Source: an uncultured Eubacteriales bacterium (GTDB lineage: Bacteria > Bacillota > Clostridia > Christensenellales > Aristaeellaceae). From it: a stretch of 64,000 bases of DNA. The stretch lies in assembly GCA_900318145.1 (NCBI GenBank), contig ONJM01000001.1, forward strand, positions 186,001 to 250,000. Reading direction: 5' to 3'. Numbering within the stretch: position 1 is the stretch's first letter; every line of letters starts with the position of its first letter. A program made the translations under genes and the position numbers. Below the pieces are notes generated by a model. The model made no database searches. It was not told where the DNA came from and worked only from the letters and a program-made list of their open reading frames with translations. Positions 39,154-64,000 of this stretch are shown here, piece after piece.

Positions 39154-42138
39154 ATGAGGAAAACCATCTGTTTTTTCCTTTTGCTGCTGGCGGCGATATG
39201 CATCGCCGCGGTCTCGACAGCCGCGACGGAACTGTCCATCCGGGAATGTGAGGAGATCGTCAGTACCTATTCCATTGACAAGAGCATTCCTTCCTACGCG
39301 GATTACCAGGCCGCCCACAGCGGCGCGGAATACCCGGAGACGGAAATTGTGCTGGAAGGCGCGGACGCGGTCCGTTACCTGGACGAGGACGGAACGGACA
39401 AACCGGTTAAGCTGACTGACTACGCGGGCAGTACAGGAGAATCCCTGCTGACCGGCGAGGAAGCGATCGCGGAATGGGAATTTACCGCGGAGAAAACCGG
39501 ATGGTACGAACTTGAAGTCCAGTATTATTCCTATCCGGGAAAGAATTCCGAGATCCAGCGGGCGTTTTTCCTGGACGGGAAGCTGCCGTATTCCGAACTG
39601 GCCGGAATTTCGTTTTCCCGGACATGGCGGAACGACCTGAACAAGGGCGTGGAACGCTATACGGACGAAAACGGCATTCCCGGGATCAAATGGCGGAAGG
39701 ACAATCAGGGAAATGATCTGAAGCCTTCACCGGAGGAAGCGCCGGAATGGGCAGCTACACTCCTGTACGATTCCAACGGATATATCAGCGAGAGCCTGCA
39801 GATATACGTGGAGGCGGGTGAACATACGCTGACAGTGCTTTCCCTGCGGGAACCGATGCTGATCCGCAGGCTGGTTTTCAGAAACGCTGAAAAGCTGCCG
39901 GCCTACGCCGAGACCGAGAAAAAGGGCGGCGCCGCGGGGCAGCTGATCCGGATTGAGGCGGAGACCGCTGAAAAGACATCCTCCCAGATGCTGTATCCGA
40001 CGCAGGACCAGTCCTCCGCAGCCGTCTATCCGGCCAGCGCCAGGTACCTGCTGAACAACACCATCGGCGGGAATGCATGGAAGAGCGCGGGCCAGTGGAT
40101 TGAATGGAAATTCACCGCCGCGGAGGAGGGCGATTACGCGATCTCCCTCTACGACAAACAGAACTTTGTCCGCGGTATCGATATCTACCGCAAAATCTAT
40201 ATCGACGGGAAAGTGCCGTTCCGTGAATTCAGCGACATGGCTTTCAGCTACGGCCAGAACTGGCGCATGGAGACGCTGAAGGACGAGGACGGAGCGCCGT
40301 ACCTGGTGCACCTGACTGCCGGGGAACATACGATCCGGATGGAAGTGGTGCTGGGCGATATGGCCGGCATCATCAGTCAGGTGCAGGACTGTGTGCTGCA
40401 GCTGAACGGGATTTACCGCCAGGTGCTGTACATCACCGGCGTCACGCCTGATCCTTACCGTGATTACCAGATTGAACGGAGCCTGCCCAACCTGAAGGGT
40501 GACCTGGAAAAGGTACGGGCGGACCTGCAGATTGCCATCGGCGCGCTTGAGAAAACCGCCGGCCACGCCAGCGACAAGCTGACCGTGCTGCGTACCATGG
40601 ACGACCAGCTTGAGGAACTGATCCGGGACCAGGAACGGTTTACGGAAGTCCTTTCTTCCTATAAGACAAACGTCCGGGCGTGCGGTAACTGGATCACCCA
40701 GGTACTGGGGCAGCCGCTGCAGGTGGACCGGATTTACCTGCATACGGCGGACGTAACACCGCGGGCGGACGGGGACGATTTCGGCACGGGTTTCCTCCAT
40801 GAAATGTCCCGGCTGGGCAATTCCTTCGTCATCGATTATAACCAGATCGGCAACGTGGCGGAGAACGCGGAGGACGCGAAAGTGATCACGCTGTGGATCG
40901 GCACCGGCCGGGACCAGGCCAACGTGATCAAATCCCTGATAGACGAGCGGTTTACGCCGGAGACCGGGATCAGCGTGAACGTACAGCTGGTGGATATGAA
41001 CACCCTGCTGCGGGCGACACTTTCCGGCCAGGGGCCGGACGTGGCGATCCAGGTGGCCAATACCACCGGGATCGCCGGCGCCGTAATGAACACCGGCAAT
41101 GATACGCCGGTGAACTACGGCCTGCGCCACGCGGTACTGGACCTGACGCAGTTTGCCGACTTTACGGATGTGGCCGCACGGTTCGCATCCAGCGCACTGG
41201 TGCCCTTCTCCTTCAACGGCGCGACCTACGCGCTGCCGGATACCCAGACTTTCCCGATGATGTTCTACCGGAAGGATATCCTGGCGGAAATCGGACTGGA
41301 GGTGCCGGAAACCTGGGACGACGTGAAGGTGGCCATGAGCGTGCTTTCAAAGAACCAGATGGAATTCGGCATGCTGCCGGGAGAACAGACTTTCGCCATG
41401 CTGCTGTACCAGGCAGGCGGGGAGTATTACACACCCAGCGGCGACGCATCCGCGCTGGACGATGACGTGGCCATTAACGTATTCAAACGCTACTGCGAAT
41501 TCTACACGGACTACAAACTGGACCGGGCAACCTCGGTGGAGGAGCGCTTCCGCACCGGCGAATGCCCGATCATCATCACGGACTACACCACCTACAACAA
41601 CCTGCAGGTATCCGCCCCGGATATCAAGGGACTGTGGGAATTCACCCATGTGCCCGGAACGCTGCGGGAGGACGGAACACTGGACACGACCACCGGCTGC
41701 TCCGGCCTGGCGAACATCATCATGAGCGCGACGAAGGAACCGGACGCATGCTGGGAATTCCTGAAATGGTGGACGAGCGCGGAGATCCAGACACTGTACG
41801 GACGGGAAATGGAATCCCTGATGGGCTCCTCCGCCCGGGTTGCCACCGCGAACCAGGAAGCCCTTGCCAACCTCTCCTGGCCGATCCGGGACTACAAGTC
41901 CCTGTCGACGCAGTTCGGAAACGTCAAGGGTATCCCGCAGGTCCCCGGCGGGTACTACTCCTGGCGAAACGTAAACAATGCCTTCTACGCGGTGACGACC
42001 GGCGCCGGAAAAGAAGCCGGAAATACACCCCGTGAAGAGCTGATGGATAAGATTTATTACATCAACGCGGAGATTACCTACAAGCGGACCGAATTCGGGC
42101 TTCCGCTGGCAGGAGGAAAGGAGGGAGACGGACAATGA
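39154..42138 (+). CDS. Giant sugar-binding protein with two beta-sandwich modules (cassette copy 1)
   Basis: This 994-residue secreted protein has a signal peptide (residues 1-24, ending near TAA) without a lipobox. Two beta-sandwich, CBM-like modules follow (about 60-245 and 265-430). They share the pattern of an inserted 'FSRTWRND' or 'FSYGQNWRM' strand and an ending like AGEHTLTVL or AGEHTIRME. A helical spacer covers about 450-540. A full ABC solute-binding domain (about 575-985) has ITLWIGTGRDQANVIKSLID, GQGPDVAIQ and PETWDDVKVAM. The typical family length is 420-450, so the N-terminal half is extra. It probably captures a large surface glycan and passes it to the permeases. The gene overlaps the next by 4 bp. 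The copy at 55636 is clearly paralogous along its length. Confidence 0.85.
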   Translation: MRKTICFFLLLLAAICIAAVSTAATELSIRECEEIVSTYSIDKSIPSYADYQAAHSGAEYPETEIVLEGADAVRYLDEDGTDKPVKLTDYAGSTGESLLTGEEAIAEWEFTAEKTGWYELEVQYYSYPGKNSEIQRAFFLDGKLPYSELAGISFSRTWRNDLNKGVERYTDENGIPGIKWRKDNQGNDLKPSPEEAPEWAATLLYDSNGYISESLQIYVEAGEHTLTVLSLREPMLIRRLVFRNAEKLPAYAETEKKGGAAGQLIRIEAETAEKTSSQMLYPTQDQSSAAVYPASARYLLNNTIGGNAWKSAGQWIEWKFTAAEEGDYAISLYDKQNFVRGIDIYRKIYIDGKVPFREFSDMAFSYGQNWRMETLKDEDGAPYLVHLTAGEHTIRMEVVLGDMAGIISQVQDCVLQLNGIYRQVLYITGVTPDPYRDYQIERSLPNLKGDLEKVRADLQIAIGALEKTAGHASDKLTVLRTMDDQLEELIRDQERFTEVLSSYKTNVRACGNWITQVLGQPLQVDRIYLHTADVTPRADGDDFGTGFLHEMSRLGNSFVIDYNQIGNVAENAEDAKVITLWIGTGRDQANVIKSLIDERFTPETGISVNVQLVDMNTLLRATLSGQGPDVAIQVANTTGIAGAVMNTGNDTPVNYGLRHAVLDLTQFADFTDVAARFASSALVPFSFNGATYALPDTQTFPMMFYRKDILAEIGLEVPETWDDVKVAMSVLSKNQMEFGMLPGEQTFAMLLYQAGGEYYTPSGDASALDDDVAINVFKRYCEFYTDYKLDRATSVEERFRTGECPIIITDYTTYNNLQVSAPDIKGLWEFTHVPGTLREDGTLDTTTGCSGLANIIMSATKEPDACWEFLKWWTSAEIQTLYGREMESLMGSSARVATANQEALANLSWPIRDYKSLSTQFGNVKGIPQVPGGYYSWRNVNNAFYAVTTGAGKEAGNTPREELMDKIYYINAEITYKRTEFGLPLAGGKEGDGQ

Positions 42139-43064
42139 GCATTGCAGCCAAGGCAAAGGCACGGCCCAGGAACGAAGCGCTCCTGTATCAGATCCGGAAG
42201 AACAAAGCGTCCTATTTTCTGATGGCGCCGTATTTTATCCTGTTCTTCCTGTTCACGGTACTGCCGGTGGCCATGTCCATTTACCTGTCCTTCAACTACT
42301 TCAACATGCTGGAAGCGCCCCGCTGGGTCGGCTGGTCCAACTACATCAAGCTGCTGCTGGAAGACGATATTTTCATCATCTCCCTGCGCAACACGCTGCT
42401 GTTCGCCGTCATCACCGGCCCGGTCAGTTACCTGCTGTGCCTGCTGTTTGCCTGGATCATCAATGAATTCACCCCGAAGGTCCGGTCCCTGCTGACACTG
42501 GTGTTCTACGCCCCGTCCATCTGCGGCAACGCGTACATGATCTGGAACCTGATCCTGACCGGTGACCGGTACGGCTACCTGAACGGCCTGCTGCTGCGGC
42601 TGCGCCTGATCAACGAACCGATCCTGTGGATGCAGACGGAACAGTACATCATGCCCGTACTGATTGTAGTGCAGCTGTGGCTGTCCCTGGGCACCGGCTT
42701 CCTGGCGTTCATCGCCGGTCTGCAGACCGTTGACAAGGGTATGTATGAAGCAGCCGCCATTGACGGCGTCAAGAACCGCTGGCAGGAGCTGTGGTTCGTT
42801 ACACTGCCGGCCATGAGGGCCCAGCTGATGTTCGGCGCCGTGATGCAGATCACCCAGTCCTTCGCGGTGGCGGATATCTCCATCGCGCTGGCCGGGAATC
42901 CCTCCGTAAACTACGCCGGCGCGACTGTTGTCACGCACCTGCTGGACTACGGTTCCACACGCCTGGACATGGGCTATGCCTCCGCGATTGCCACGATCCT
43001 GTTCCTGCTGATGGTCGGCACCAACAAGCTGGTACAGCGCGTGCTCAGAAGGGTGGGTGAGTAA
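42135..43064 (+). CDS. Sugar ABC transporter permease 1 (cassette copy 1)
   Basis: This 309-residue CUT1 permease has six helices and the EAA loop YEAAAIDGVKNRWQELWFVTLPAM, near 197-220. The signature asparagine/glycine turn GWSNYIKLLLEDDIF follows the first helix. It begins inside the stop of the binding-protein gene (ATGA), so receptor and permease are made together. The nearest relative in this window is the protein at 58549, with shared GNAYM/GNAYT and LGTGFLAF/MSTGFLAF stretches. The partner is the next gene. No ATPase gene is present. Confidence 0.93.
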   Translation: MSIAAKAKARPRNEALLYQIRKNKASYFLMAPYFILFFLFTVLPVAMSIYLSFNYFNMLEAPRWVGWSNYIKLLLEDDIFIISLRNTLLFAVITGPVSYLLCLLFAWIINEFTPKVRSLLTLVFYAPSICGNAYMIWNLILTGDRYGYLNGLLLRLRLINEPILWMQTEQYIMPVLIVVQLWLSLGTGFLAFIAGLQTVDKGMYEAAAIDGVKNRWQELWFVTLPAMRAQLMFGAVMQITQSFAVADISIALAGNPSVNYAGATVVTHLLDYGSTRLDMGYASAIATILFLLMVGTNKLVQRVLRRVGE

Positions 43065-43068
43065 GGCT

Positions 43069-44058
43069 ATGACGGAAAAAGCTGAAAGAAAACCCGCAAA
43101 GCTGCCTTTCCCGCGGCTCCGCAGGGAACCTGCCGAAATGACGCCGGAAGAGGAAGAGGCCGCCCGGCAGAAACGGCTGGACAAAATTCACCGGAAGATG
43201 AAGCATAAATCCGGCAAGAAAAAACTGAACCGTTCCACGGCCGGCAACGCGGTGCTGTTCATCCTGATGGGCATCTGCGGCGTATTCATGGTGCTGCCGC
43301 TGGTCATGATCGCAAACAACGCGCTGAAACCGCTGGACGAAATCTACCAGTTCCCGCCGAGAATATTCGTGCGGAACCCGACACTGACAAACTTCTCGGA
43401 CCTGTTCGTCCTGATGAATGAAAGCTGGGTGCCTTTCACACGCTACATCCTGAACACTCTTATCATCACGCTGGGCGGCATGATCGGCCACGTAGTGATC
43501 GCTTCCATGGCGGCGTATCCGCTGGCAAAGCACAAATTTCCCGGTAAGGCGCTGCTGTTCTCCATGGTTGTGCTGTCCCTGATGTTCTCGTGGACGGTAA
43601 CCCAGATTCCCCAGTACCTGATTATTTCCTGGCTGGGCATCAACAATACCTACGGCGCGCTGGTGCTGCCGGCCTGGTCCTTCGGTATGGGCCTTTACCT
43701 GATGAAGCAGTTTATGGAACAGCTTCCGGACTCGCTGATGGAAAGCGCGCGCCTGCAGGGCGCCAATGAATGGCAGATCTTCTGGAAAATCATCATGCCC
43801 AACGTAAAACCCGCCTGGCTGACACTGGCGATCTTCCAGTTCCAGCAGATGTGGGGCAACACGGGCGGCATGTTCCTGCGGAACGAGGAGCTGAAGCCTC
43901 TCCAGTACGCACTGCAGCAGATTACTTCCGGCGGTGTCAGCCGTGCCGGCGCCGGCGCGGCCGTGACGTTCATCATTGCCGCGATTCCGATTATCTTCTT
44001 CCTGGTTTGCCAGAGCTCCATCATGGAGACGATGACAACATCCGGTATGAAGGATTAA
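43069..44058 (+). CDS. Sugar ABC transporter permease 2 (cassette copy 1)
   Basis: This 329-residue second permease has EAA loop MESARLQGANEWQIFWKIIMP. An unusual highly charged N-terminal extension of about 40 residues (EEEEAARQKRLDKIHRK and similar) precedes the first helix; the copy-2 homologue lacks most of it. The start is uncertain: ATG 43069 is used, but GTG 43057 would add four residues and overlap the previous gene by 8 bp. The ribosome site AAGGGTGG serves either imperfectly. The C-terminus SSIMETMTTSGMKD closely matches the copy-2 ending QILETMASSGLKD. Confidence 0.9.
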   Translation: MTEKAERKPAKLPFPRLRREPAEMTPEEEEAARQKRLDKIHRKMKHKSGKKKLNRSTAGNAVLFILMGICGVFMVLPLVMIANNALKPLDEIYQFPPRIFVRNPTLTNFSDLFVLMNESWVPFTRYILNTLIITLGGMIGHVVIASMAAYPLAKHKFPGKALLFSMVVLSLMFSWTVTQIPQYLIISWLGINNTYGALVLPAWSFGMGLYLMKQFMEQLPDSLMESARLQGANEWQIFWKIIMPNVKPAWLTLAIFQFQQMWGNTGGMFLRNEELKPLQYALQQITSGGVSRAGAGAAVTFIIAAIPIIFFLVCQSSIMETMTTSGMKD

Positions 44059-44071
44059 GGAGGGGAAGCGC

Positions 44072-45553
44072 ATGAAAATGAAACGGTTCCTGTGCCTGCT
44101 CCTCCTGACGGCGGTACTCGCCGGGACGGCAGGGGCGGACGACTTCCTTCCATATGACTGCTACAACTACGACCACTGGAACAATATCCTCTATACGCCC
44201 GCACCGTATGTGCCGGGCAGGATGATTCTCGGAACGGACCTGACCTGGCAGGGAGAGCCGCTCGGTTCCTTCCGCACGCCCCAGGACCTGTGCGAGGCGC
44301 CGGACGGCAGCCTGTACATCGCGGACACGGGCAACAACCGGATCGTTGTTCTGGACAGCGGAATGAAGTCTGTTCTGAAGGTAATCGACAGCTTTGAAGA
44401 AAACGGGAAGGTACAGACCTTCAACGCGCCGTACGGCGTGGCCGTTTCCGAAAAGGGTGTGCTGTACATCGCCGATTCCCAGAACCGGCGGATCGTCGTG
44501 CTGAATCCGGACGGTTCCTTTGTCAAGTATGTTCAGAACCCGAAGAGCGAGGTGCTGGACGAAGGATATGTCTTCACACCGCTGCGGGTTTCCGTTGACT
44601 ACGCGGACCGCGTGTACGTGATCGCCCAGAACATGTTTCAGGGGATCATGGTGTTCTCCGCAGAAGGAAACTTTACGGGCTTTTTCGGAACCATCAGCGT
44701 GAAGATCTCCCTGTGGGAGAAATTCTGGCGGAAGATCGCCACCAAGGAAGAACGCTCCAAACAGATGCTGTTCATTCCGACGGAGTTTACCGGCATCGAT
44801 GTGGACGATGAAGGCTTCGTATATGCCTCCAACAAGGACACAGACGGGCTGCAGGCAGTGCGCCGGCTGAATCCGAAAGGGGAGGACGTCATCAAGAAGG
44901 GCCCCACGGGGAACCTGGGCGGGGACAGGGTGTTCGGATCCGTCGGCAACTATTCAGGACCGAGCCAGATTGTGGATGTGGTCTACCGGGACCACGGCAT
45001 TTACTCCCTGCTGGACTTCCGCCGCGGACGCGTTTTTACGTACGACCATGAGGGCAACCTGCTGTACATTTTCGGCGGCATCGGCAGCCAGATGGGCACC
45101 TTCCGCATGCCGGCGGCGATTGAGCAGGTCGGCAAACATCTGCTGGTGCTGGATTCCCAGCAGGCATCCATCACCGTCTTTGACGAAACAGACTACGGCC
45201 GGCTGATCAATGAAGCTGTGAGCCTCCGGTTCAGCGGGGACGAAAGCCTGGCGGTTCCGCTGTGGCAGGAGGTGCTCCGGCTGGATGAGATCAACGAGCT
45301 GGCGAACACCGGTATCGGCAAGGCATACCTTTCCGCGGGCGACAATGAAAAAGCCATGACCTATCTCCGCAGGGGCATGAACCGGGAGTATTATTCCGTT
45401 GCCTTCAAACGCTGGCGGAATGACCTGCTGCGGGACAACATCAGCTGGGTGCTGTCCGGTCTGATCGTGCTGATCGCCCTGATCGTCATCTGGAAAAAAG
45501 TGATTAAGCCCAGGCGGGCCAACGCGGGACGGAAGGAGAGGAAGACTGCATGA
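44072..45553 (+). CDS. NHL-repeat beta-propeller membrane protein with TPR-like region (cassette copy 1)
   Basis: This 493-residue protein has a signal peptide (about residues 1-23). An extracellular NHL/six-bladed propeller covers about 40-375, with blades such as DGSLYIADTGNNRIVVLD, KGVLYIADSQNRRIVVLN and VDDEGFVYASN. Two short TPR-like helical repeats (about 385-445, including GIGKAYLSAGDNEKAMTYL) follow. A C-terminal transmembrane helix (about 458-478) leads to a basic cytoplasmic tail. A propeller tethered outside next to a sugar transporter could bind glycan or scaffold a complex. I know no characterised homologue in such a role. It overlaps the Yip1-family gene by 4 bp. Confidence 0.82.
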   Translation: MKMKRFLCLLLLTAVLAGTAGADDFLPYDCYNYDHWNNILYTPAPYVPGRMILGTDLTWQGEPLGSFRTPQDLCEAPDGSLYIADTGNNRIVVLDSGMKSVLKVIDSFEENGKVQTFNAPYGVAVSEKGVLYIADSQNRRIVVLNPDGSFVKYVQNPKSEVLDEGYVFTPLRVSVDYADRVYVIAQNMFQGIMVFSAEGNFTGFFGTISVKISLWEKFWRKIATKEERSKQMLFIPTEFTGIDVDDEGFVYASNKDTDGLQAVRRLNPKGEDVIKKGPTGNLGGDRVFGSVGNYSGPSQIVDVVYRDHGIYSLLDFRRGRVFTYDHEGNLLYIFGGIGSQMGTFRMPAAIEQVGKHLLVLDSQQASITVFDETDYGRLINEAVSLRFSGDESLAVPLWQEVLRLDEINELANTGIGKAYLSAGDNEKAMTYLRRGMNREYYSVAFKRWRNDLLRDNISWVLSGLIVLIALIVIWKKVIKPRRANAGRKERKTA

Positions 45554-46182
45554 GAAGCCTGTTCAGCAAAGAAAAATGGTCTCATCTCTTCTATACGGTC
45601 AGCCATCCGGCAGACGGATACTACTGGATCCGTCACCAGGAGAAAGGAAGCATTCCGATCGCGCTTCTGCTGGTTTTCCTGTACGGTATCGCGTTTTCCA
45701 TGAACCGGATCTGCGCCAGCTTTATCGTGAACGATATCGAGCCCAGAACCGTGAACCTGGTCGCGGAGCTGGCCGGCGTGATCCTGCTGTACTTCATCAT
45801 GTGCGTGGGGAACTGGTCTGTTACCTGTCTGATGGAGGGCGAGGGCCGCTTCAGGGATATCCTGATCGCGGTCGGATATGCCCTGCTCCCCATGCTGGTG
45901 ACCACGGTGCTGGCGACGATCGTTTCGCAGTTCGTCGCGGAGAACGAGGAAGCGTTCTATACGATTCTGATGGGCGTCGGCACAGCCTATACCGTGATCC
46001 TTCTGATCATGGGCATCATGCAGATCCACAACTATACAATGGGGAAGACGCTGGTGACGCTGTTCCTGACGGTTGTGGCAATGCTGATCCTGATTTTCCT
46101 GGCGCTGCTGGTGCTGAATTTCATCACGCAGGTCTATTCATTCCTGCGCGGAATCTATACTGAACTGATATTCCGCTTTTAA
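45550..46182 (+). CDS. Yip1-family membrane protein (cassette copy 1)
   Basis: This 210-residue protein has five predicted membrane helices between about residues 35 and 195. A polar N-terminus with HLFYTVSHPADGYYWIRHQEKGS matches the 'HPxxxFxxI' entry motif of Yip1-domain proteins. EGEGRFRDILIAVGYALLPML is the central hallmark, and QIHNYTMGKTL precedes the last helices. Bacterial Yip1 proteins have no settled function; in eukaryotes the family shapes membranes and traffic. Its fixed position between the NHL and DUF5696-like genes in both copies suggests a membrane platform for the complex. Confidence 0.85.
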   Translation: MRSLFSKEKWSHLFYTVSHPADGYYWIRHQEKGSIPIALLLVFLYGIAFSMNRICASFIVNDIEPRTVNLVAELAGVILLYFIMCVGNWSVTCLMEGEGRFRDILIAVGYALLPMLVTTVLATIVSQFVAENEEAFYTILMGVGTAYTVILLIMGIMQIHNYTMGKTLVTLFLTVVAMLILIFLALLVLNFITQVYSFLRGIYTELIFRF

Positions 46183-46196
46183 GGAGGAGAGGCAAA

Positions 46197-49720: not shown

Positions 49721-49736
49721 GGAAGGGGGGAATACC

Positions 49737-53893: not shown

Positions 53894-53907
53894 TTTATTT
53901 CCTGACA

Positions 53908-53943: not shown

Positions 53944-53958
53944 TTTACGGTTTTCATA

Positions 53959-55212: not shown

Positions 55213-55246
55213 CTGAGGGATCACTCCTTTTTATATATCTGAATTC

Positions 55247-55274
55247 ATTATATACTCAATCCCTTTTTCCGCAA
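55247..55274 (-). promoter_or_regulatory. Promoter of the GH5 gene
   Basis: On the reverse strand, TTGCGG (complement of 55269-55274) and TATAAT (complement of 55247-55252) are 16 bp apart. Confidence 0.65.
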
Positions 55275-55303
55275 GCATAAACTATGGATACGGGGTTTCC
55301 CGC

Positions 55304-55360
55304 GGAGTCCGGCATCCGGCCGAAACGGACGGAAAAACCACCTGCCGGATTCCGGACTCC
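55304..55360. repeat. Long inverted repeat between the divergent GH5 and cassette-2 promoters
   Basis: The arms 55304-55320 and 55344-55360 are complementary over 17 bp with one mismatch, extended by one more pair at 55303/55361, around a 23-base loop. No T-run follows on either strand, so it is not a normal terminator. The rest of the 423-bp gene-free stretch (55213-55635) holds two promoters and the cassette-2 leader, and nothing else I recognise. Confidence 0.7.
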
Positions 55361-55487
55361 GGTCCGCTCCGCATTGGATCGCAAGAAATGAGAAGACCGG
55401 AGCAAGAATCCCTCATCATACGAAAAAAGCAAGAAATATCAACAGTTTCAGACTGAATCCGACCGGATTTTACAGGACAAACAATGA

Positions 55488-55516
55488 TTGACAACAGCAG
55501 AATATGCCATTATAAT
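55488..55516 (+). promoter_or_regulatory. Perfect sigma-A promoter of cassette copy 2
   Basis: TTGACA (55488-55493) and TATAAT (55511-55516) are both perfect and 17 bp apart. The leader of about 113 nt holds a hairpin (GGTTG/CAACC near 55579-55594) and ends in GGAGG (55623-55627), eight bases before a TTG start. Confidence 0.9.
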
Positions 55517-55635
55517 CTCTTCGGATATAAGATAAAAAAGGAAAACCGGGGACGCAAAAACAGATTCATAGCCGAAGGGGTTGTACGGACAACCTTGTGC
55601 AGATTTCATATACTGTTTCGTTGGAGGTGTTGGCG

Positions 55636-58530
55636 TTGGAGAACACAAAAAGCATAGCCTGGAGGAAATGGATCATTTTTGCTGTTGTGGTGCTTCTCCT
55701 TGTGCTGTGGTTTGTGCTTTCTTCCGGAGATGAAAGCTTTGAGAAGAAGTACGCGGACGTTCCGGATCTGGATACACAGCTGGCAGCGTTCAGCGACCAC
55801 AACCGCTATGCGGATTATCTTGCGAAGTATGAGAATGAAGCGGTCCCTTCCGGCGAGATTTCCGTGGACGTACTTTCCGCGGAGGAGGGGAACGGCATTT
55901 CCGCCGCTGCGGAAGGCCTGCGGACGGAGAATGACAGTACTGCGGTCTGGCACGTGGACGTTCCCGAAGCCGGCCTGTACCAGCTGCAGATGCGGTACCT
56001 GACCGTGGAATCCCGCGGCGTGGATCTGGAACGGATTCTGAAGATCAACGGGGAAGTACCGTTCAAGGGCGCAGATCAGCTTATTTTTTCCCGTCTCTGG
56101 ACGGATGAAAGCGCGCCGCGCCAGGACAACCAGGGAAACGATATCCGTCCGTCCCAGAAGGAAGTATTCGACTGGCAGACCATATATTTCCGCGATTCCC
56201 TGGGCTATATCACCGATCCCTACCTTTTCTGGTTCAAACAGGGAGACAATATCATCAGCCTGGAGGCGGTCAGTGAACCGATGACCATCGGGGAACTGAA
56301 GCTGGTGCCGCCGAAGCAGCCGGTATCCTACGCGGAATACAGCAAACAGTATGAAGGAAAGGAAAACCGTACACCTGCCGGATTTGAGACTTCGGTTCAG
56401 GGTGAGAACGCGATACTCCGCTCCTCTCCCTCGCTTTACCCCCGGTATGACCGGTCTTCCCCCGGCACGGAGCCCTACAGCGTTTCAGCCATCAAACTGA
56501 ACTATATCGGCGGCGACCCCTGGCGGACTGCCGGCCAGTGGATCCAGTGGGAGTTTGAGGTGCCGGAGGACGGCTTCTACAATATTACGATCAAGGGCCG
56601 ACAGAATTACGCCCGCGGCTGCCTTTCATGCCGGGTTTTCACGCTGGACGGGGAAACGCCCTTCGAGGAATCCCAGGTGCTTGAATTCAGCTACGACAAC
56701 AACTGGAATTATATGACACTTTCCGATGCCGACGGGAAACCGTTCCGCTTCTGGCTGGCCGCCGGGAAGCATAACGTCCGTCTGGAAGCTACGCTCGGTT
56801 CCATGGGCGCGGTGCTTTCCGACATGCAGGAGCGTGTAACGCACCTGAACAGCATCTACCGGAAATTCCTGGTGCTGACCAGCGCAAGCCCGGACATTTA
56901 CCGGGACTACAAGCTGGCGAACGTCTATCCGGAAGAAGTGGCCGCACTGAACGTGGAGAGCAAAGCGCTGTACAAACTGGTGGACGAGATGGTGGCAATT
57001 ACCGGCCAGAAGAACGACAAGGCCGCCTCCATACAGACGCTTGCCATGCAGCTTGAGGATTTCTACGACGATCCGGATAAAATCACCCAGATGTTCATGA
57101 ACTTCAAAGACAACATCTCCGCACTGGGCACATCCATGCAGTCCCTGAGCGAGATCAAGCTGGACGTGGACAAGGTGATCATTACCGCGGACGGGACGAA
57201 ACCCACCCGTGCAGACGAGGGATTCTTCGCCCGGCTCGGGCATGAAATCCGTTCCCTGTACGCAAGCTATGTCGTCAACTACGACGCGCTGGGCGATGTA
57301 CACGAAGGCGCGGACGTTCTGAACGTCTGGATTGTAACCGGCCGTGACCAGAGTACCATACTGAAGACGATGGTTGACGACACCTTCACGCCGAACTACA
57401 AAATCCCCGTGAACGTCAAGCTGGTGGATCCGGGCGCCCTGCTGAACGCGGTGGTGGCCGGAAAGGGACCGGACGTGGTGCTGTCCACGGACACCTGGAA
57501 TCCCGTCAACTACGCGCTGCGCCACGCGATTGAGGACCTGACACAGTTCGATGACCTGGATGAAGTCCTTTCACAGTTCTATGAAAGCTCCTACGCTGCC
57601 GTGAAGTTCGAAGGCGGCGTATACGCCCTGCCGGAAACGCAGATGTGCAACGTTCTCTTCTACAGAAAAGATATTCTTGCGGAACTCGGACTGGATGTTC
57701 CTGAAACATGGGATGATTTCATCGCGATGCTGCCAACGATACAGGGCGCCAACCTGAGCGTCGGCATTCCGTATCCGGACATCACCGCACCGAATCTGGC
57801 GACTTTCTACGCCATGCTGTACCAGCAGGGCGGCGCCATCTACACTGAAGACGGAAAGAAAACCGCAATTACCAGCGAGGCGGGCGTGAAGGCGTTTGAA
57901 ATGTACACCTCCCTGTACAACGACTACGGACTGCCGGTCGTGTTCGACTTCCTGAGCCGTTTCCGTACCGGTGAAATGGTCATGGGCATTTTCGACTACA
58001 CCATTTTCAATACCCTGATGGTTTCCGCACCGGAAATCCGCGGGCTGTGGGATATCGCGGTGCTGCCAGGGACATACAGGACAGACGGGAACGGGAAGGA
58101 ATACCTGGACAGGCACGGCCATTCCCAGGGCGCCTGCTGCATGATGATCGCCACGGATGACGAGAAGATCAAACAGGAAGCCTGGACGTTCATGAAATGG
58201 TGGGTTTCCACGGACGCACAGGTCCGGTTCGGCCGTGAGATGGAAAGCCTGCTCGGTTCCTCCGCACGGTACGCGACCGCGAACATCGAAGGTGTCGAAC
58301 AGCTGCCCTGGAGTGAAAAACAGCTGAAGGTTATCCGGGAACAGATGAAGTGGGCTGTGGGTTACCGCGAGGTAGCCGGCGGATATTACACCAACCGGCA
58401 CCTGACCAACGCGATTCGCAAGATCATTAACGAACACACAGACAGGCGCGAAACCCTGAACGATTACGCGCGGACCATCAACGAAGAAATCACCAAGAAG
58501 CGCATCGAATTCGGGCTGCCGGTGGATTAA
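55636..58530 (+). CDS. Giant sugar-binding protein, membrane-anchored (cassette copy 2)
   Basis: This 964-residue protein starts at TTG 55636, fixed by GGAGG spacing. Unlike copy 1, it begins with a transmembrane anchor (about residues 11-31, WIIFAVVVLLLVLWFVLSSG) and no cleavage site. Two CBM-like beta-sandwich modules (about 55-235 and 255-420), a helical spacer (about 440-530) and a full solute-binding domain (about 565-955) follow. The last has VWIVTGRDQSTILKTMVD, GKGPDVVLS and ETWDDFIAML. Order and many residues match copy 1, for example GQWIQWEFEVPEDGFYNI against GQWIEWKFTAAEEGDYAI. It should hold glycan at the membrane beside its permeases. Confidence 0.85.
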   Translation: MENTKSIAWRKWIIFAVVVLLLVLWFVLSSGDESFEKKYADVPDLDTQLAAFSDHNRYADYLAKYENEAVPSGEISVDVLSAEEGNGISAAAEGLRTENDSTAVWHVDVPEAGLYQLQMRYLTVESRGVDLERILKINGEVPFKGADQLIFSRLWTDESAPRQDNQGNDIRPSQKEVFDWQTIYFRDSLGYITDPYLFWFKQGDNIISLEAVSEPMTIGELKLVPPKQPVSYAEYSKQYEGKENRTPAGFETSVQGENAILRSSPSLYPRYDRSSPGTEPYSVSAIKLNYIGGDPWRTAGQWIQWEFEVPEDGFYNITIKGRQNYARGCLSCRVFTLDGETPFEESQVLEFSYDNNWNYMTLSDADGKPFRFWLAAGKHNVRLEATLGSMGAVLSDMQERVTHLNSIYRKFLVLTSASPDIYRDYKLANVYPEEVAALNVESKALYKLVDEMVAITGQKNDKAASIQTLAMQLEDFYDDPDKITQMFMNFKDNISALGTSMQSLSEIKLDVDKVIITADGTKPTRADEGFFARLGHEIRSLYASYVVNYDALGDVHEGADVLNVWIVTGRDQSTILKTMVDDTFTPNYKIPVNVKLVDPGALLNAVVAGKGPDVVLSTDTWNPVNYALRHAIEDLTQFDDLDEVLSQFYESSYAAVKFEGGVYALPETQMCNVLFYRKDILAELGLDVPETWDDFIAMLPTIQGANLSVGIPYPDITAPNLATFYAMLYQQGGAIYTEDGKKTAITSEAGVKAFEMYTSLYNDYGLPVVFDFLSRFRTGEMVMGIFDYTIFNTLMVSAPEIRGLWDIAVLPGTYRTDGNGKEYLDRHGHSQGACCMMIATDDEKIKQEAWTFMKWWVSTDAQVRFGREMESLLGSSARYATANIEGVEQLPWSEKQLKVIREQMKWAVGYREVAGGYYTNRHLTNAIRKIINEHTDRRETLNDYARTINEEITKKRIEFGLPVD

Positions 58531-58548
58531 GAAAGGAGGGATCAAGCC

Positions 58549-59487
58549 GTGAGCAGTTTCGCCGCAAAGTATGTCAAACTCAAAAAGCGCAATACAGCCA
58601 TTGCGTGGGAGAAAGCCAAGCGGAACCGGGTCTGCTACCTGTTCCTGCTTCCGTACGCCGTTCTGTTCTTCACTTTCTTCATCCTGCCGATGATCACCTC
58701 GATCATTTACTCCTTCACCTACTACAATATCCTGGAGCCTCCGAAATATATCGGACTGCAGAACTACATCAACCTGATCCTGCAGGATGAAGTGTTCCTG
58801 ACTGCCGTGAAGAACACCTTCCTGATCGCGGTGATTACAGGCCCGCTGGGATATATCCTGTCCTTCGGATTCGCATGGTTCATCCATGAGCTGCCCCGCT
58901 GGATCCGGACGTTCGCAGTTCTGATTTTCTACGCGCCGAGTATATCCGGCAACGCCTATACCGTTTTCAACATCATCTTCCGGGGCGACTCCTACGGCTG
59001 GTTCAACGCCCTCCTGATGAACCTGGGCATCATCAAGACACCGGAGCTCTGGCTGACCAACCCGGCAACGATCATGCCGGTGCTGATCTTCGTCATTCTG
59101 TGGATGAGCATGTCCACCGGATTCCTTGCTTTCGTCGCCGGCCTGCAGGGCATCGACCGCAGCCAGTACGAAGCCGGGTATGTGGACGGTATCCGGAACC
59201 GCTGGCAGGAGCTTTACTTCATAACGCTGCCGAACATGAAGCCTATGCTGCTATTCGGCGCGGTCATGGCCATCACCCAATCCTTCAACGTAGCGGACGT
59301 TCCGATGGCGCTGGCCGGTTTCCCCTCCACGGATTACGCCGCGCACACGGTTGTCGTCCATCTGTTCGACTACGGCTATACCCGGTTTGAAATGGGTTAC
59401 GCATCCGCCATCGCGACGCTGCTGTTCCTGGTGATGATCCTGTGCAACAAGCTGATCCAGAACGCGTTAAGGAGGGTTGGCACATGA
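58549..59487 (+). CDS. Sugar ABC transporter permease 1 (cassette copy 2)
   Basis: This 312-residue permease starts at GTG 58549 after AAAGGAGGG. It has six helices and the EAA loop YEAGYVDGIRNRWQELYFITLPNM, where Gly replaces the second Ala of the usual EAA. SGNAYTVFNIIF and MSTGFLAFVAGLQG correspond to copy 1. The stop overlaps the next start (ATGA). It pairs with the permease at 59484. Confidence 0.92.
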   Translation: MSSFAAKYVKLKKRNTAIAWEKAKRNRVCYLFLLPYAVLFFTFFILPMITSIIYSFTYYNILEPPKYIGLQNYINLILQDEVFLTAVKNTFLIAVITGPLGYILSFGFAWFIHELPRWIRTFAVLIFYAPSISGNAYTVFNIIFRGDSYGWFNALLMNLGIIKTPELWLTNPATIMPVLIFVILWMSMSTGFLAFVAGLQGIDRSQYEAGYVDGIRNRWQELYFITLPNMKPMLLFGAVMAITQSFNVADVPMALAGFPSTDYAAHTVVVHLFDYGYTRFEMGYASAIATLLFLVMILCNKLIQNALRRVGT

Positions 59488-60383
59488 GCATAGCCGTAAA
59501 GAATACCAGCGGACACCGCATGAAAGCCGTCAACGGCCGGAAGAGAAGGCCGAACCGTTCCATCTGGGGCGATATCGGCGTCTGGCTGCTGCTGATCATC
59601 GTTGCCGTTATTATGGCACTGCCGCTCATCCTGGCGATTTCCAATTCCCTGAAGCCCCTGAACGAACTGTTCCGATTCCCGCCGACCATTTTCCCGATCC
59701 ATCCGACGCTGTCCAACTACAGTGACCTGATGGTGACACTGGGACAGAGCTGGGTACCCTTTACCCGCTATCTGACGAACACGGTCTGGATTACACTGCT
59801 CGGCACAGCCGGCCACCTGCTGATTGCTTCCATGGCAGCGTTCGTACTGGCCAAGTACGATTTCCCGGGAGGAAGAACGTTCTTCAGCATCGTCGTGGTC
59901 GCCCTGATGTTCAACGGCTACGTCACAGCGATTCCGAACTTCATTACGATGAGCAAGCTGGGCCTGATCGATACGATCTGGTCCGTGGTGCTGCCGGCGT
60001 TCGCCTCACCCATGGGGCTGTTCCTGATGAAGCAGTTCATGGAAGGTCTGCCGTTCTCCCTGATCGAATCCGCCAAGCTGGACGGCGCCAGGGAATTCCG
60101 GATCTTCTGGACGATCGTGATGCCGAACGTGAAACCGGCCTGGCTGACGCTGATCATCTTCTCCGTGCAGGGCCTGTGGAACAACCGGGCTTCCGCGGTC
60201 ATCTATTCCGAAAGCAAAAAAACGCTGCCTTACGCGCTGCAGCAGATCCAGGCAGGCGGTATCGCCCGTACCGGACAGGCGGCCGCGGTTATCGTGGTGA
60301 TTATGATCGTTCCGATCATTACATTCATCCTTTCCCAGAGCCAGATACTTGAAACCATGGCCAGTTCCGGCCTCAAGGATTAA
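59484..60383 (+). CDS. Sugar ABC transporter permease 2 (cassette copy 2)
   Basis: This 299-residue permease starts at ATG 59484; AAGGAGGG lies just before it inside the previous gene. Its EAA loop reads IESAKLDGAREFRIFWTIVMPNVKP. The N-terminal basic stretch is short, unlike the 40-residue charged extension of copy 1. The ending QILETMASSGLKD is shared. Together with the preceding subunit it makes the cassette-2 translocation pore. Confidence 0.92.
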   Translation: MSIAVKNTSGHRMKAVNGRKRRPNRSIWGDIGVWLLLIIVAVIMALPLILAISNSLKPLNELFRFPPTIFPIHPTLSNYSDLMVTLGQSWVPFTRYLTNTVWITLLGTAGHLLIASMAAFVLAKYDFPGGRTFFSIVVVALMFNGYVTAIPNFITMSKLGLIDTIWSVVLPAFASPMGLFLMKQFMEGLPFSLIESAKLDGAREFRIFWTIVMPNVKPAWLTLIIFSVQGLWNNRASAVIYSESKKTLPYALQQIQAGGIARTGQAAAVIVVIMIVPIITFILSQSQILETMASSGLKD

Positions 60384-60395
60384 GGGGGTGCGGAC

Positions 60396-61904
60396 ATGAT
60401 GAAACGAATTGCCGCCGCTGCGGCAGCCATGCTGCTCGCACTGTGCTGCACTGTACCCGCGCTTGCGGCGGACGGGTACAAATACTCCTATACCTACACC
60501 TATGACTACTGGGAGGATGTTCGTGAGTCTCCGGACGCCTACCGCGTCAAAATGATGATCTCGACCGCGGAGTTCGAGGACATCGGCGGACTGAAAAATC
60601 CGCAGGGACTGTTCGTCCGGAACAGGGACGCGTATATCTGCGATACCGGCAACAACCGCGTGATTCAGATCCGGCTGAAGGATGACGGATTCGAACGCGT
60701 CCGTGTGATTGATTCCTTCACCGGCGAGACTTCGCCGACAACCTTCAACAGCCCCCGGGATATTTACGTCATGGAAGACGGGACAATGTTCATCGCCGAC
60801 TACAGCAACAACCGCGTCGTCCGGCTGGACAGAGACCTGAACTGGGAGCTGTCTTTCACAAAACCGACGGACAACAACTTCGACCAGAACGCTGAATTCC
60901 TGCCGAGGAAGCTTGTGGCGGATGTTGTGGGACGCGTATATGTGCTGAGCCAGAACGTGAACAAGGGTATCGTCAAGTTTGAAGCGGACGGACAGTTCAA
61001 CGGCTTTATCGGCGCGAACAAGGTCCGGGTGAACCTGTACGACCAGATGTGGAAGATGATCGCCACAAAGGAGCAGCGGGCCAGGATGGAAAGCTTCGTC
61101 CCGACGGAATATGAGAACATTGCGCTGGATCCGGACGGATTCTTCTATGTGGTGACAAAAACCTTCAACGAGAATGAACTTCGCAGCGGCAGCGCGGATC
61201 CCGTCCGCCGGCTGAACGCGGTGGGGAACAACATCCTGGTGCAGAACGGCGCGTTCTGGGTCATCGGCGACCTGGAATGGGCAGCCGGAAACACAAACCT
61301 AACACACCGCGGCCCCAGCAAGTTCGCGGACGTGACCGTACTGCAGGATGATATCTACATGGTGCTGGACAGTACCCACAACCGGATTTTCGGTTATGAC
61401 CAGCAGGGCAATATGCTGTGGGGATTCGGGGGCGTCGGCAACGCGGACGGATTCTTCAACAACCCGATGGCCATTGAGCATATGGGAACAGACCTGCTGA
61501 TCCTGGACGCGGGCGGCGCCTACGGCGGATCCCTGACCGTCATGACACCCACGGAATACGGCCAGATGGTCTACACAGCCATCCATCAGTACCGGACCGG
61601 CGACTACGACGGATCCGCGAAGACCTGGACTGACGTGCTTTCAAGGAACGGCAATTCCGATTCCGCGTACATCGGCATCGGCCGGGCGCTCCTGCAGCAG
61701 GAAAAGTACGACGAAGCGATGAGCTATTTCAAGGCGGCGGAAGACGACAAGAACTATTCGGAAGCCTGGCGGCTTCGCCGGATGGAACTGGTGGAGCAGA
61801 ATATTGTTCCCATCTTCATTGTGGTTGCGGCAATCCTGGTTCTGCCTCCGCTGATCCGCCGGATCAAGAAGATCAAGTGGGAGGTGAAGATGTTCCATGA
61901 GTGA
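60396..61904 (+). CDS. NHL-repeat beta-propeller membrane protein with TPR-like region (cassette copy 2)
   Basis: This 502-residue protein has a signal peptide (about 1-25, ending ALA). The extracellular propeller covers about 50-385, with blades such as RDAYICDTGNNRVIQI, DGTMFIADYSNNRVVRLD and GRVYVLSQNVNKGIVKF. TPR-like helices (about 395-455, including GIGRALLQQEKYDEAMSYF) and a C-terminal membrane helix (about 468-485) follow. The arrangement is identical to the protein at 44072, with extended matches around the WKMIATKEQR/WRKIATKEER insertion, which is a useful family marker. It overlaps the Yip1 gene by 8 bp. Confidence 0.82.
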   Translation: MMKRIAAAAAAMLLALCCTVPALAADGYKYSYTYTYDYWEDVRESPDAYRVKMMISTAEFEDIGGLKNPQGLFVRNRDAYICDTGNNRVIQIRLKDDGFERVRVIDSFTGETSPTTFNSPRDIYVMEDGTMFIADYSNNRVVRLDRDLNWELSFTKPTDNNFDQNAEFLPRKLVADVVGRVYVLSQNVNKGIVKFEADGQFNGFIGANKVRVNLYDQMWKMIATKEQRARMESFVPTEYENIALDPDGFFYVVTKTFNENELRSGSADPVRRLNAVGNNILVQNGAFWVIGDLEWAAGNTNLTHRGPSKFADVTVLQDDIYMVLDSTHNRIFGYDQQGNMLWGFGGVGNADGFFNNPMAIEHMGTDLLILDAGGAYGGSLTVMTPTEYGQMVYTAIHQYRTGDYDGSAKTWTDVLSRNGNSDSAYIGIGRALLQQEKYDEAMSYFKAAEDDKNYSEAWRLRRMELVEQNIVPIFIVVAAILVLPPLIRRIKKIKWEVKMFHE

Positions 61905-62571
61905 ACTGACCGCAGGACGGGCGCTCGCCAGCAAATCGTGGTGGAAAAAATTCGGCGCTTCCGTCAAATACGCCTTCTATGTCATGTTTCATCCATTTGA
62001 CGGTTTCTGGGACCTGACTCATGAACACCGGGGAAGCCTGGCGGCAGCGAACCTTTTCGTAATTCTACTGCTGCTGGGGCGGCTGATGACCCTGCAGTTC
62101 ACCAACATGATGTTCATGAAGGTGTACTGGCCCCGGGTCAACATTTTCCAGCAATGCGCATCCCTGCTGCTGCCGCTGAGCATTTACTGCATCTGCAACT
62201 GGGGCCTGACCACACTGTTCGACGGCAAAGGCACCCTGAAGGACGTGTACATCGCTACCGCCTACGCACTGGTACCGTACCTCATCGGGATGTATCTTAT
62301 CATTCCCCTCAGCAACATCCTGACCATGGAGGAGGGGAGCCTTTATACGGTCATCGAGACTTTCATGCTGGTATGGTCAGCGCTGCTGCTGGTGATCGGC
62401 ATGGTGCAGATCCATGACTTCGGCCTGGGGAAAACCATCCTGTTCCTTTTCATGACGGTTGTGGCCATGGCGATTGTCGTATTCCTGCTGCTGCTGTTCC
62501 TGACGCTGGTCAGCGACGGCCTGGGATACATTATCTCCGTGTATAAAGAAATCAACTTCCGGTTGAACTAA
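61897..62571 (+). CDS. Yip1-family membrane protein (cassette copy 2)
   Basis: This 224-residue protein has five predicted membrane helices. The entry motif KYAFYVMFHPFDGFWDLTHE and the central DGKGTLKDVYIATAYALVPYL match the Yip1 domain. QIHDFGLGKTILFLFMTVVAM aligns with the copy-1 QIHNYTMGKTLVTLFLTVVAM. It starts within the 3' end of the NHL gene and lies 15 bp before the DUF5696-like gene, in the same order as copy 1. Confidence 0.85.
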   Translation: MSELTAGRALASKSWWKKFGASVKYAFYVMFHPFDGFWDLTHEHRGSLAAANLFVILLLLGRLMTLQFTNMMFMKVYWPRVNIFQQCASLLLPLSIYCICNWGLTTLFDGKGTLKDVYIATAYALVPYLIGMYLIIPLSNILTMEEGSLYTVIETFMLVWSALLLVIGMVQIHDFGLGKTILFLFMTVVAMAIVVFLLLLFLTLVSDGLGYIISVYKEINFRLN

Positions 62572-62586
62572 GGAGGCGGACGAATC

Positions 62587-64000
62587 ATGGCAAAGAAGAG
62601 AAAATGGATTCGGCGTACCGTCTTCTGGACTGTATTCGCGGCGCTGATCGCCCTGTTTGTCTGGAAGGTCGGCATTCCGCTGTTCACGGAAGAAGAGGAT
62701 ACCCGGGTTCACCAGGTGGTTCCCTACGGCTATGACGGATCCACCGATCCGGTGATCCTGGAGAACGCCAACCTGAAGTTTGAACTGGATCCGGCAACTA
62801 CACGGTTTACGGTGACCGACAAGCGAAACGGCGCTGTGTGGGAATCTTCTCCGGCAGGGGCCGCCAGCGACCCGATCGCGCAGCCGGTGGAAAAGAACCG
62901 GCTGCAGTCTGAACTCACACTGATCTACAGCATTTCCACCGGTATGGATACGCTGCTGACCAGCCATGAATACAGCGTAACGAACCAGGTTTACGAGGTG
63001 GTTCCGGAAGAAAACGCGGTCAGTGTGAATTTCTCGGTCGGGCGCATCAGCCGGACTTTCCGGATTCCGACTGCGATTACGGAAGAACGCATGGATTCCT
63101 TCCTCGCGAAAATGGCCAAAAAGGATTCGCGGGATGTCAAGGAATACTATGAAAAGAAGAGCCTTGCCAAGCTGAAGAAAAAGGATGATCCGGAAGTCCT
63201 GAAACAGATGTATCCGGATATCGAGGAGCATACGATCTACGTGATCCGCGATACGGTAAAGGACCACCTGAAGCAAAAGATGGAAGGCCTGTTTGAGGCG
63301 GCCGGATACACCCCGGAAGAATACGAGTACGACATGTCCCGGATCAACGTGGAAAAGGCCTCCGCGAGCGCCGCGTTCAACATCACGCTGGTCTATACCC
63401 TTGAGGACAACGACCTGGTTGTTACCATCCCGCTGGACCGGGTGATGTACAATGACGGATATCCGATCCGCTCCATCTCCCTGCTGCCGGGCTTCGGCGC
63501 AGGACATACGTCCGATACCGGATTCATCCTGGTGCCGGACGGCAACGGCGGCATCATCAACTTCAACAACGGCAAGAAAGACCAGAACACATACTACGGC
63601 AATCTGTACGGATGGGACTGGGCTTCCCTGCGGAAACAGGTAAATAACGAAACCGTCTGCTCCTTCCCGGTGTTCGGCATTTCCCGGAACGGCGCTTCCA
63701 TGCTGTGCATGATCGAGGACGGCGCACAGTGGTCCTCGCTTACGGCGGACATTTCCGGGCGGCTGACCTCCTACAACACGGTGTACAACACATTCAGCAT
63801 CATTCACGGAGATCCGTACGACGCATCAGACCGGGATATCAACGCGAAATACCTGTACGAGGAGGAAATCCCAGAAGGAAAACTGGTGCAGCGGTACCGC
63901 TTCCTGGAAACGGACGACGCAACCGGCATGGCGGCTTCGTACCGTGAATACCTGCAGAAAGGCATTCTTGCGGAACACCCTGAAATCCGGGAGAATATGC
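62587..64000 (+). CDS. DUF5696-like membrane-anchored surface protein, partial at window end (cassette copy 2)
   Basis: This open frame from ATG 62587 (after AAGGAGGCGG) runs off the window with 471 residues visible and no stop. One transmembrane helix (about residues 11-29) precedes an outside domain. FILVPDGNGGIINFNNGKKD and GISRNGASMLCMIEDGA correspond to the copy-1 sequences CLVVPDGSGAVIRFNNGKSG and GICRPESSVLVTCERGA. A charged helical insertion (about 165-255, Lys/Glu-rich) is larger here. The putative catalytic barrel half is not yet reached. It is a truncated view, not a broken gene. Confidence 0.78.
   Translation, partial: MAKKRKWIRRTVFWTVFAALIALFVWKVGIPLFTEEEDTRVHQVVPYGYDGSTDPVILENANLKFELDPATTRFTVTDKRNGAVWESSPAGAASDPIAQPVEKNRLQSELTLIYSISTGMDTLLTSHEYSVTNQVYEVVPEENAVSVNFSVGRISRTFRIPTAITEERMDSFLAKMAKKDSRDVKEYYEKKSLAKLKKKDDPEVLKQMYPDIEEHTIYVIRDTVKDHLKQKMEGLFEAAGYTPEEYEYDMSRINVEKASASAAFNITLVYTLEDNDLVVTIPLDRVMYNDGYPIRSISLLPGFGAGHTSDTGFILVPDGNGGIINFNNGKKDQNTYYGNLYGWDWASLRKQVNNETVCSFPVFGISRNGASMLCMIEDGAQWSSLTADISGRLTSYNTVYNTFSIIHGDPYDASDRDINAKYLYEEEIPEGKLVQRYRFLETDDATGMAASYREYLQKGILAEHPEIRENM

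Follow-up and report, generated by a model that had tools for sequence, protein, structure and literature searches.

A published locus of the kind reported here is the xylan degradation locus (XDL) of Caldicellulosiruptor bescii. As far as the available excerpts of PMC8579813 go, its genes run xloEFG-X-GH129-axoFGE and are followed by xylanase genes; the locus is differentially expressed on xylan and Avicel, and its proximal genes are among those upregulated about 10- to 100-fold on xylan versus cellobiose. The same excerpts place it under the control of XynR (and, by prediction, of AraR), and XynR binds its operator in vitro according to the accessible part of PMC12285236. In this study, we analyzed a window of 64,000 nucleotides from an uncultured Eubacteriales bacterium (GenBank assembly GCA_900318145.1, contig ONJM01000001.1, positions 186,001 to 250,000), and we found a related glycan uptake cassette that is present twice. 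Each copy carries, between two sets of transporter genes, the genes of three further proteins: a protein with an NHL propeller and a TPR-like region (NHL/TPR), a Yip1 protein and a DUF5696 protein (hereafter the triad). The contig that holds the window (C61 in our numbering) is 395 kb long and belongs to a 3.24-Mb assembly. Copy A occupies positions 39154-53893, and copy B runs from 55597 or 55636 to beyond the window end, so its remainder was read from the same contig.

The cassette has the same order as the Caldicellulosiruptor locus (Csac_2404-2420), where, in the accessible part of the published description, a solute-binding protein (SBP), two permeases, 'X', 'GH129', two permeases and an SBP are followed by GH43/GH10 genes (GH, glycoside hydrolase). 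Copy B matches this XDL-type order including the xylanase genes behind the last SBP. One genome of our collection (G427), which from its gene architecture we infer to be a Caldicellulosiruptor, includes a big SBP, two permeases, an NHL-TPR-Yip1 fusion, a DUF5696 protein, two permeases and two SBPs, and its downstream enzymes match the XynF and XynE architectures given in excerpts of PMC5658599. The places in G427 suggest that X is the NHL-TPR-Yip1 fusion and that GH129 is the DUF5696 protein. The earlier note on this DNA had claimed that the three extra proteins have no settled function. This is nearly right: their places are in print in a xylan-induced operon, named merely 'X' and 'GH129' in the excerpts of PMC8579813. 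The published C. bescii transcripts, as far as they are excerpted, are also the one source from which co-expression of the triad with the transporters may be read. In addition, Athe_0181, whose place suggests that it is the small SBP, aids lignocellulose breakdown without catalysis in a separate study, as cited in the accessible part of PMC10492685. However, NHL/TPR and Yip1 are one protein in Caldicellulosiruptor and two proteins in the window, and the window has a second, mannan-type copy that the Caldicellulosiruptor locus lacks.

Other described systems share less with the cassette. As in the Gram-positive polysaccharide utilization loci (gpPUL) described in the accessible part of PMC5320581, a transporter and glycanases stand in one locus, and regulators occur beside some relatives. 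No regulator was found among the genes scanned beside the window copies; LacI-type genes flank some relatives. Compared with a gpPUL, the cassette adds two permease pairs and the triad, and to our knowledge the gpPUL definition includes no such triad. In outline (surface binding, trimming and import), the cassette may resemble the Sus-like systems of Bacteroidota, but the parts are unrelated, and no SusC/SusD-type gene was found among the cassette genes scanned with Pfam. Our literature search, which mostly did not reach subscription journals, found no paper that names DUF5696 or describes the NHL/TPR-Yip1-DUF5696 triad. The layout is already partly in print, and the role of the obligate triad is what would be new. 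The cassette is a real, conserved and partly described uptake module that belongs to the Gram-positive glycan loci with CUT1 importers.

Both copies share nine genes in the same order: big SBP, permease 1, permease 2, NHL/TPR, Yip1, DUF5696, permease 3, permease 4, and small SBP. All genes of copy A are on the + strand. They code for the big SBP (39154..42138; 994 amino acids, aa), permease 1 (42135..43064; PF00528), permease 2 (43057..44058; PF00528), the NHL/TPR protein (44072..45553; with a signal sequence seen by eye, a C-terminal membrane helix and a basic tail), Yip1 (45550..46182; PF04893, 5.5e-14; about six hydrophobic helices), DUF5696 (46197..48794; PF18952, 9.5e-190; N-terminal membrane anchor and predicted GH129/GH101-like fold), permease 3 (48791..49720), permease 4 (49737..50741), and the small SBP (52544..53893; PF01547). 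Before the small SBP there is a protein with three CBM65 stretches (CBM, carbohydrate-binding module; 50796..52505; PF18259, 9.5e-67). Copy B, also on the + strand, includes the big SBP (55597..58530), permease 1 (58549..59487), permease 2 (59442..60383), the NHL/TPR protein (60396..61904), Yip1 (61897..62571; PF04893, 1.9e-14), and the first part of DUF5696 (62587..64000). Most of the DUF5696 gene and everything after it lie outside the window. In a numbering of the same contig that extends beyond the window (L005), the whole DUF5696 gene is at 8588-11161, permease 3 at 11158-12084, permease 4 at 12077-13093, and the small SBP at 13155-14540.

The earlier note had described a cassette of six genes, ending with DUF5696, at 39154-48794 and 55636-64000. 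The six gene types agree with the open reading frames (ORFs) and with Pfam in both copies, and the order does repeat. However, the six-gene unit was rejected, because three further paired genes follow DUF5696 in both copies; the second permease pair and its SBP had been missed, and the unit consists of nine genes with two importers. Likewise, the end of copy B at 64000 did not hold, since DUF5696 and the rest run on, while its start is plausible: the ORF call begins at 55597 (GTG), and the in-frame TTG at 55636, shortly after a GGAGG, would be at least as plausible a start of the big SBP. Every one of the six pairs is paralogous, as had been claimed, with A versus B identities of 28-54% (big SBP 35% over 956 aa, permease 1 54%, permease 2 53%, NHL/TPR 34%, Yip1 33%, and DUF5696 28% over 820 aa). 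For the last three genes, the identities were 37% (permease 3), 32% (permease 4) and 27% (small SBP), and the best match of each was its positional partner in the other copy. The overlap of many gene pairs was also borne out; neighbouring ORFs share 4 or 8 bases at four junctions in copy A and at three in copy B. A recent duplication was rejected because the copies fall in different clades of the big SBP tree, with support of 99 and 100, and the two copies are old paralogues.

To estimate how firmly these genes are linked, a collection with one genome per species was scanned with a DUF5696 alignment, which gave 543 relatives; the best 80 were kept with names. The locus profiles were first built from the two window copies, and loci with less than 8.5 kb upstream or less than 4.5 kb downstream were dropped from the flank counts. 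The named loci came from rumen Clostridia, Lachnospiraceae, Paenibacillus, Cohnella, Alkalihalobacillus, Neobacillus, and others. In the loci with sufficient flank, DUF5696 is preceded by the big SBP, permease 1, NHL/TPR and Yip1 in 64 of 64 and followed by permeases 3 and 4 in 70 of 70. A small SBP stood on one of the two sides in 58 of 58, and mostly in front in Paenibacillaceae and Alkalihalobacillus. Permease 2 was called in 55 of 64 loci, and tblastn recovered it in 10 of 10 loci without a call. The gene order is fixed across Clostridia and Bacilli.

Among 398 genomes of the phylum (own genome included), the search for DUF5696 and that for the cassette-type Yip1 each gave 37 genomes, and these were the same 37. 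A Yip1 match lies at most 3 kb away from 55 of the 57 DUF5696 matches in these genomes. One of the two exceptions is near a contig start, and the other is on a 13-kb contig (L135) with a fused NHL/TPR-Yip1 by profile. In the other direction, 55 of 78 Yip1 matches had a scored DUF5696 within 3 kb; the remaining 23 are in genomes for which the best three DUF5696 candidates were scored. Twenty of these 23 were fetched (hereafter Yip1-first loci). They include NHL/TPR and DUF5696 in 20 of 20 and permeases 3 and 4 in 16 of 20, the other four being cut by a contig end or a run of N, and the big SBP in 11 of 20. At the level of the order (151 genomes; DUF5696 matches weaker than 3.9e-25 dropped, and the best ten NHL/TPR candidates per genome scored), 23 of 23 Yip1 matches and 22 of 25 NHL/TPR matches were within 3 kb of DUF5696, and the other three NHL/TPR matches were weak and partial. 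Four of the 27 strongest DUF5696 matches in the order, and weaker relatives too, had no cassette neighbours.

In three loci (L140, L145 and L146) the first transporter stands behind the core, and in three others (L132, L133 and L135) no big SBP was seen in the locus. Together with the Yip1-first counts, these loci show that NHL/TPR-Yip1-DUF5696-permease 3-permease 4 is the invariant core, and that the first transporter often accompanies it but can be separated from it. The flank counts, the identical sets and the Yip1-first loci agree with the earlier claim that these genes belong together with carbohydrate transport. In this check of co-occurrence across Bacillota, the three extra genes were not mostly apart from the transporter genes. 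In addition, five genomes of 2.2-3.0 Mb (G190, G212, G232, G285 and G315) have at least seven cassette-type Yip1 matches each, which is a striking expansion; most of these matches lie in frames about 680-840 aa long, which is as large as an NHL/TPR-Yip1 fusion. Meanwhile, in locus L139 (genome G302, same genus as G427) permease 2 is split around a 442-aa ORF on the opposite strand that looks transposase-like by eye.

Fusion of NHL/TPR and Yip1 into a single protein was seen in 7 of the 21 order-level loci, 4 of the 80 named loci, 9 of 20 phylum loci, and 18 of the 20 Yip1-first loci. Pfam confirmed NHL, TPR and Yip1 together in two fusion proteins. The fusion order (NHL/TPR, membrane helix, Yip1) fits an extracellular propeller. 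By a simple hydropathy count, in both copies DUF5696 has one N-terminal helix, NHL/TPR has one C-terminal helix, and Yip1, whose PF04893 domain spans most of the protein with several predicted membrane helices, has five or six. Furthermore, a lipobox-like site was found in 28 of 122 DUF5696 ORFs with a generous pattern and many starts tried, and several of these sites are visible by eye. This supports a location of the soluble domains outside the cell and agrees with the earlier prediction, which had put the propeller and DUF5696 outside and Yip1 in the membrane. In the family of the window genome, four loci (L027, L029, L031 and L032) represent a third cassette type with a fused NHL/TPR-Yip1, and their DUF5696 proteins are mostly shorter and lack the nucleophile aspartate.

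A structure model of the copy A DUF5696 protein (predicted local distance difference test score, pLDDT, 88.9; predicted template modelling score, pTM, 0.85) was used for a fold search. The best matches were GH129-type enzymes (DagB, E 1.3e-32; NagBb, E 2.7e-27), with template modelling (TM) scores on the target of 0.66-0.70 (NagBb 0.68-0.70), followed by GH101 enzymes from E 8e-20 and, more weakly, by GH36 and GH13 barrels. A sequence profile also matches NagBb at E 2e-6, and DUF5696 relatives outside cassettes bridge the cassette proteins and NagBb in sequence; a search of PDB sequences with one single protein (P0004) gave chance matches only. The model thus gives most of the DUF5696 chain a GH129/GH101-like fold. 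It shares the fold, and mostly the nucleophile Asp, with the GH129/GH101 enzymes (NagBb, DagB/ZGAL_3152 and EngBF). However, it differs from them in its N-terminal membrane anchor, in extra regions (865 versus about 640 aa), in lacking a conserved acid/base, and in its fixed place between transporter genes, while relatives with both catalytic residues are found outside cassettes. Seven such proteins of 563-641 aa came from six loci (L036-L041), L036 being cut by a contig end. They have both GH129 catalytic residues wherever these are readable, and the protein of L040 is close to NagBb (E 1e-193).

Asp435, one of the two catalytic residues of NagBb, and Glu478, which we take to be its acid/base, were mapped onto 66 cassette proteins through a joint alignment. 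Of the 66, 49 retain the nucleophile aspartate, as do 7 of 7 proteins outside cassettes; it is Asp652 in copy A and also Asp in copy B, and it was found in 43 of 48 proteins of an alignment around copy A. In the other 17 of the 66, the column has T, S, A, G, K, N or E. In contrast, the acid/base Glu is absent in 61 of 66 cassette proteins (Glu in 5, Asn or Ser in 38, with Ser in copy A and Lys in copy B), whereas it is present in 6 of 6 readable relatives outside cassettes. A few residues beyond this column there is a near-constant Asn-x-Tyr (N in 60 and Y in 64 of 66). Acidic residues also occupy the Asp344 and Glu758 columns in 97% of these 66 proteins and the Asp720 column in 89%. For the four residues of the NagBb quadruple mutant, presumably metal ligands, two align with other residues, one lies in an insertion, and one is outside the alignment. 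Reading DUF5696 simply as 'GH129' calls for caution, and a loss of its activity is plausible.

According to Pfam, an SBP of the PF01547 type and two PF00528 permeases are present in both sets of copy A and in the first set of copy B; the second set of copy B was assigned by its similarity to that of copy A. With a MalK-type ATPase in the genome, the parts of CUT1 carbohydrate ATP-binding cassette (ABC) importers are present; there are five OB_MalK matches in the genome and none on this contig, and for such importers the MalK/MsmX-type ATPase is often encoded elsewhere. The model of the copy A big SBP (pLDDT 86.2) includes an N-terminal hydrophobic stretch, two beta-rich modules (about residues 60-400), a helical part (about 403-518), and a CUT1-type SBP domain (about 575-980). 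Its last approximately 430 residues match oligosaccharide-binding proteins with TM-scores on the target of 0.69-0.80, for example, binders of beta-1,2-gluco-oligosaccharides and cello-oligosaccharides. The front part gave no fold match of its own; in our own reading of the strand pattern, it may consist of jelly-roll-like binding modules and a stalk.

The glycanases beside the cassettes point to the substrates. Copy A has a GDSL esterase and a CBM35-GH26 protein upstream and the triple CBM65 protein inside. We built a tree of 105 big SBPs (those shorter than 881 aa left out), which is a quick tree with long branches. The loci were labelled by phmmer with the window's own genes, so that distant relatives are missed and flanks are clipped, and the label of copy A was set by hand from Pfam. 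A GH26 relative was in the flank of 53 of 57 loci in the clade of copy A versus 0 of 48 outside, and GH10 in 1 of 57 versus 16 of 48; in the clade of eight that includes copy B, GH10 was found in five, copy B among them. Pfam was run on flank ORFs of at least 250 aa in three sets: 44 in-cassette proteins (43 of 50 plus the window's own), 62 upstream proteins (61 of 71 plus the window's own), and a downstream set of 91 rows (88 of 165 downstream ORFs plus three in-cassette ones). CBM65 was found in 37 of the 44 in-cassette proteins of that position (window's included), and GH26 and CBM35 in 38 of the 62 upstream proteins each. In the downstream set, the commonest glycan enzymes were GH10 (12), GH43 (8), and GH130 (8), the last carrying the family name mannooligosaccharide phosphorylase. 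By association, beta-mannan or glucomannan is the most likely substrate of copy A and xylan that of copy B. This fits the earlier suggestion that the copies serve different glycans, with clades tied to GH26 (A) and GH10 (B).

Taken as a whole, each copy probably serves a Gram-positive bacterium as a dedicated module for hemicellulose uptake, in which NHL/TPR and Yip1 would form a scaffold and DUF5696 would have a binding role; we hold this reading with somewhat more confidence than doubt. Secreted enzymes (GH26 and GH5; GH10 and GH43) would cut the polysaccharide, and long fragments would be caught at the cell surface by the big SBP and, in copy A, by the triple CBM65 protein. NHL/TPR, with its one C-terminal membrane helix, and Yip1 in the membrane would form one unit; many relatives have them as one polypeptide. 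This unit would be a scaffold that holds the membrane-tethered DUF5696 next to permeases 3 and 4. DUF5696 is most likely an enzyme-derived binding domain that would grip the glycan chain or its side groups and pass the glycan on. Permeases 1 and 2 (with the big SBP) and permeases 3 and 4 (with the small SBP) might import different fragments, and a shared MalK-type ATPase, encoded elsewhere, would power both importers. The earlier note had proposed a surface complex that binds, trims and feeds a polysaccharide to the permeases. The link with transport stood; trimming is unproven, given that the GH129 acid/base is missing from DUF5696 in most cassettes, and a physical complex would be a further step of the model. 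A bolder version is possible but doubtful: the cassette may be an unnamed, widespread surface machine of Bacillota, in which the NHL/TPR-Yip1 scaffold couples DUF5696, an ex-glycosidase that now grips glycans, to a dedicated permease pair and so threads hemicellulose chains, long or branched, into ABC importers or presents them to these. If true, it would be a monoderm answer to SusCD, with a bacterial Yip1 in a transport role.

Several points weigh against the scaffold and binding reading. The best 80 of the 543 relatives were chosen by closeness to copy A and are a biased sample, and 33 of the 105 loci in the tree were labelled 'None', that is, with no relative of the window's GH26, GH10, GH43 or CBM65 in the clipped flank. 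Nine of the 20 Yip1-first loci showed no big SBP in the neighbourhood of the triad (in one of the nine a contig end intervenes), so the two importers might function separately. Furthermore, a protein that does nothing but bind would hardly be expected to retain the Asp in 49 of 66 cases, and DagB lacks the NagBb acid/base and is active. Because of DagB, we rejected the statement that DUF5696 is certainly dead, and the loss of its activity is plausible only. These last points bring us to the view, which we consider rather unlikely, that DUF5696 is an active surface exo-alpha-glycosidase of a new GH101/GH129 branch. By taking off alpha-linked side groups, which would be galactose for mannan and glucuronate or arabinose for xylan, it would let the SBPs and permeases accept the chain. 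GH129 and GH101 are retaining alpha-glycosidase families, and the shared fold, the nucleophile in both window copies, the well-kept acidic columns and the example of DagB all agree with such an enzyme. What tells against it is the near absence of the acid/base Glu in cassettes versus its regular presence outside them, the replaced nucleophile in 17 of 66 proteins, and the placement of the four quadruple-mutant positions, two of which align with other residues.

The membrane layout with outside domains would also suit a sensor, in which the NHL propeller or DUF5696 detects a glycan outside and Yip1 relays this to regulators or to permease activity. LacI-type regulators were indeed found in the flanks (9 of 91 downstream-set and 4 of 62 upstream-set proteins). 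However, the Pfam scan of the three proteins found no signalling domain, and the C. bescii locus is under XynR (and predicted AraR) control with XynR binding in vitro, as excerpted above; we regard the sensor as improbable. Even more improbable is that these are two ordinary CUT1 importers with passenger genes that have no role in uptake. The transport and binding parts alone would account for import, and the relative at L041, which is GH129-like and not part of a cassette, has an ordinary permease pair nearby, but mere passengers would hardly be found in identical sets of genomes, in an order fixed across Clostridia and Bacilli, and with two of the genes fused. About 1 in 11 of the sampled phylum genomes hold the module, which occurs in rumen and gut Clostridia and in Paenibacillus. 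DUF5696, the cassette Yip1 and the cassette NHL/TPR, which have no clear role, gain one shared context, and xylan and mannan are the glycans to which it points. In the excerpted Caldicellulosiruptor data the corresponding genes are xylan-induced, which makes the module easily testable.

In the surroundings of the copies, the GDSL-type esterase (PF13472; 35993..37459, +), for which carbohydrate deacetylase is a guess, is the upstream neighbour of copy A. It is followed by the CBM35 and GH26 gene (37635..39116, +), whose family contains mannanases and which is probably the first gene of the copy A operon. The operon may start at this gene, behind a 10-of-12 sigma-70 match at 37532-37560. Within 35900-55700, the sole 12-of-12 sigma-70 match (TTGACA-17-TATAAT) is at 55488..55516 (+), before copy B; only this site stands out, because the scan gave 11 sites versus a mean of 9.0 in shuffles. 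A terminator scan of the DNA gave 21 sites versus 17.9 in shuffles, which is no excess. Copies A and B are separated by a convergent gene for a secreted GH5 (PF00150, 6.9e-64; 53959..55224, -). A + strand gene at 53932-55242 was rejected as the antisense of this GH5 gene, and such a long antisense ORF could mislead annotation. After copy B, a GH10+GH43+CBM6 gene (L005:14628-17258) is followed by a GH10 gene (L005:17289-18518). In addition, a separate permease pair is present at window positions 18316-20150. The 572-aa protein before it (16512-18230) had no Pfam match and is possibly its SBP, and the protein after it (20201-22399) is GH127/GH76-like.

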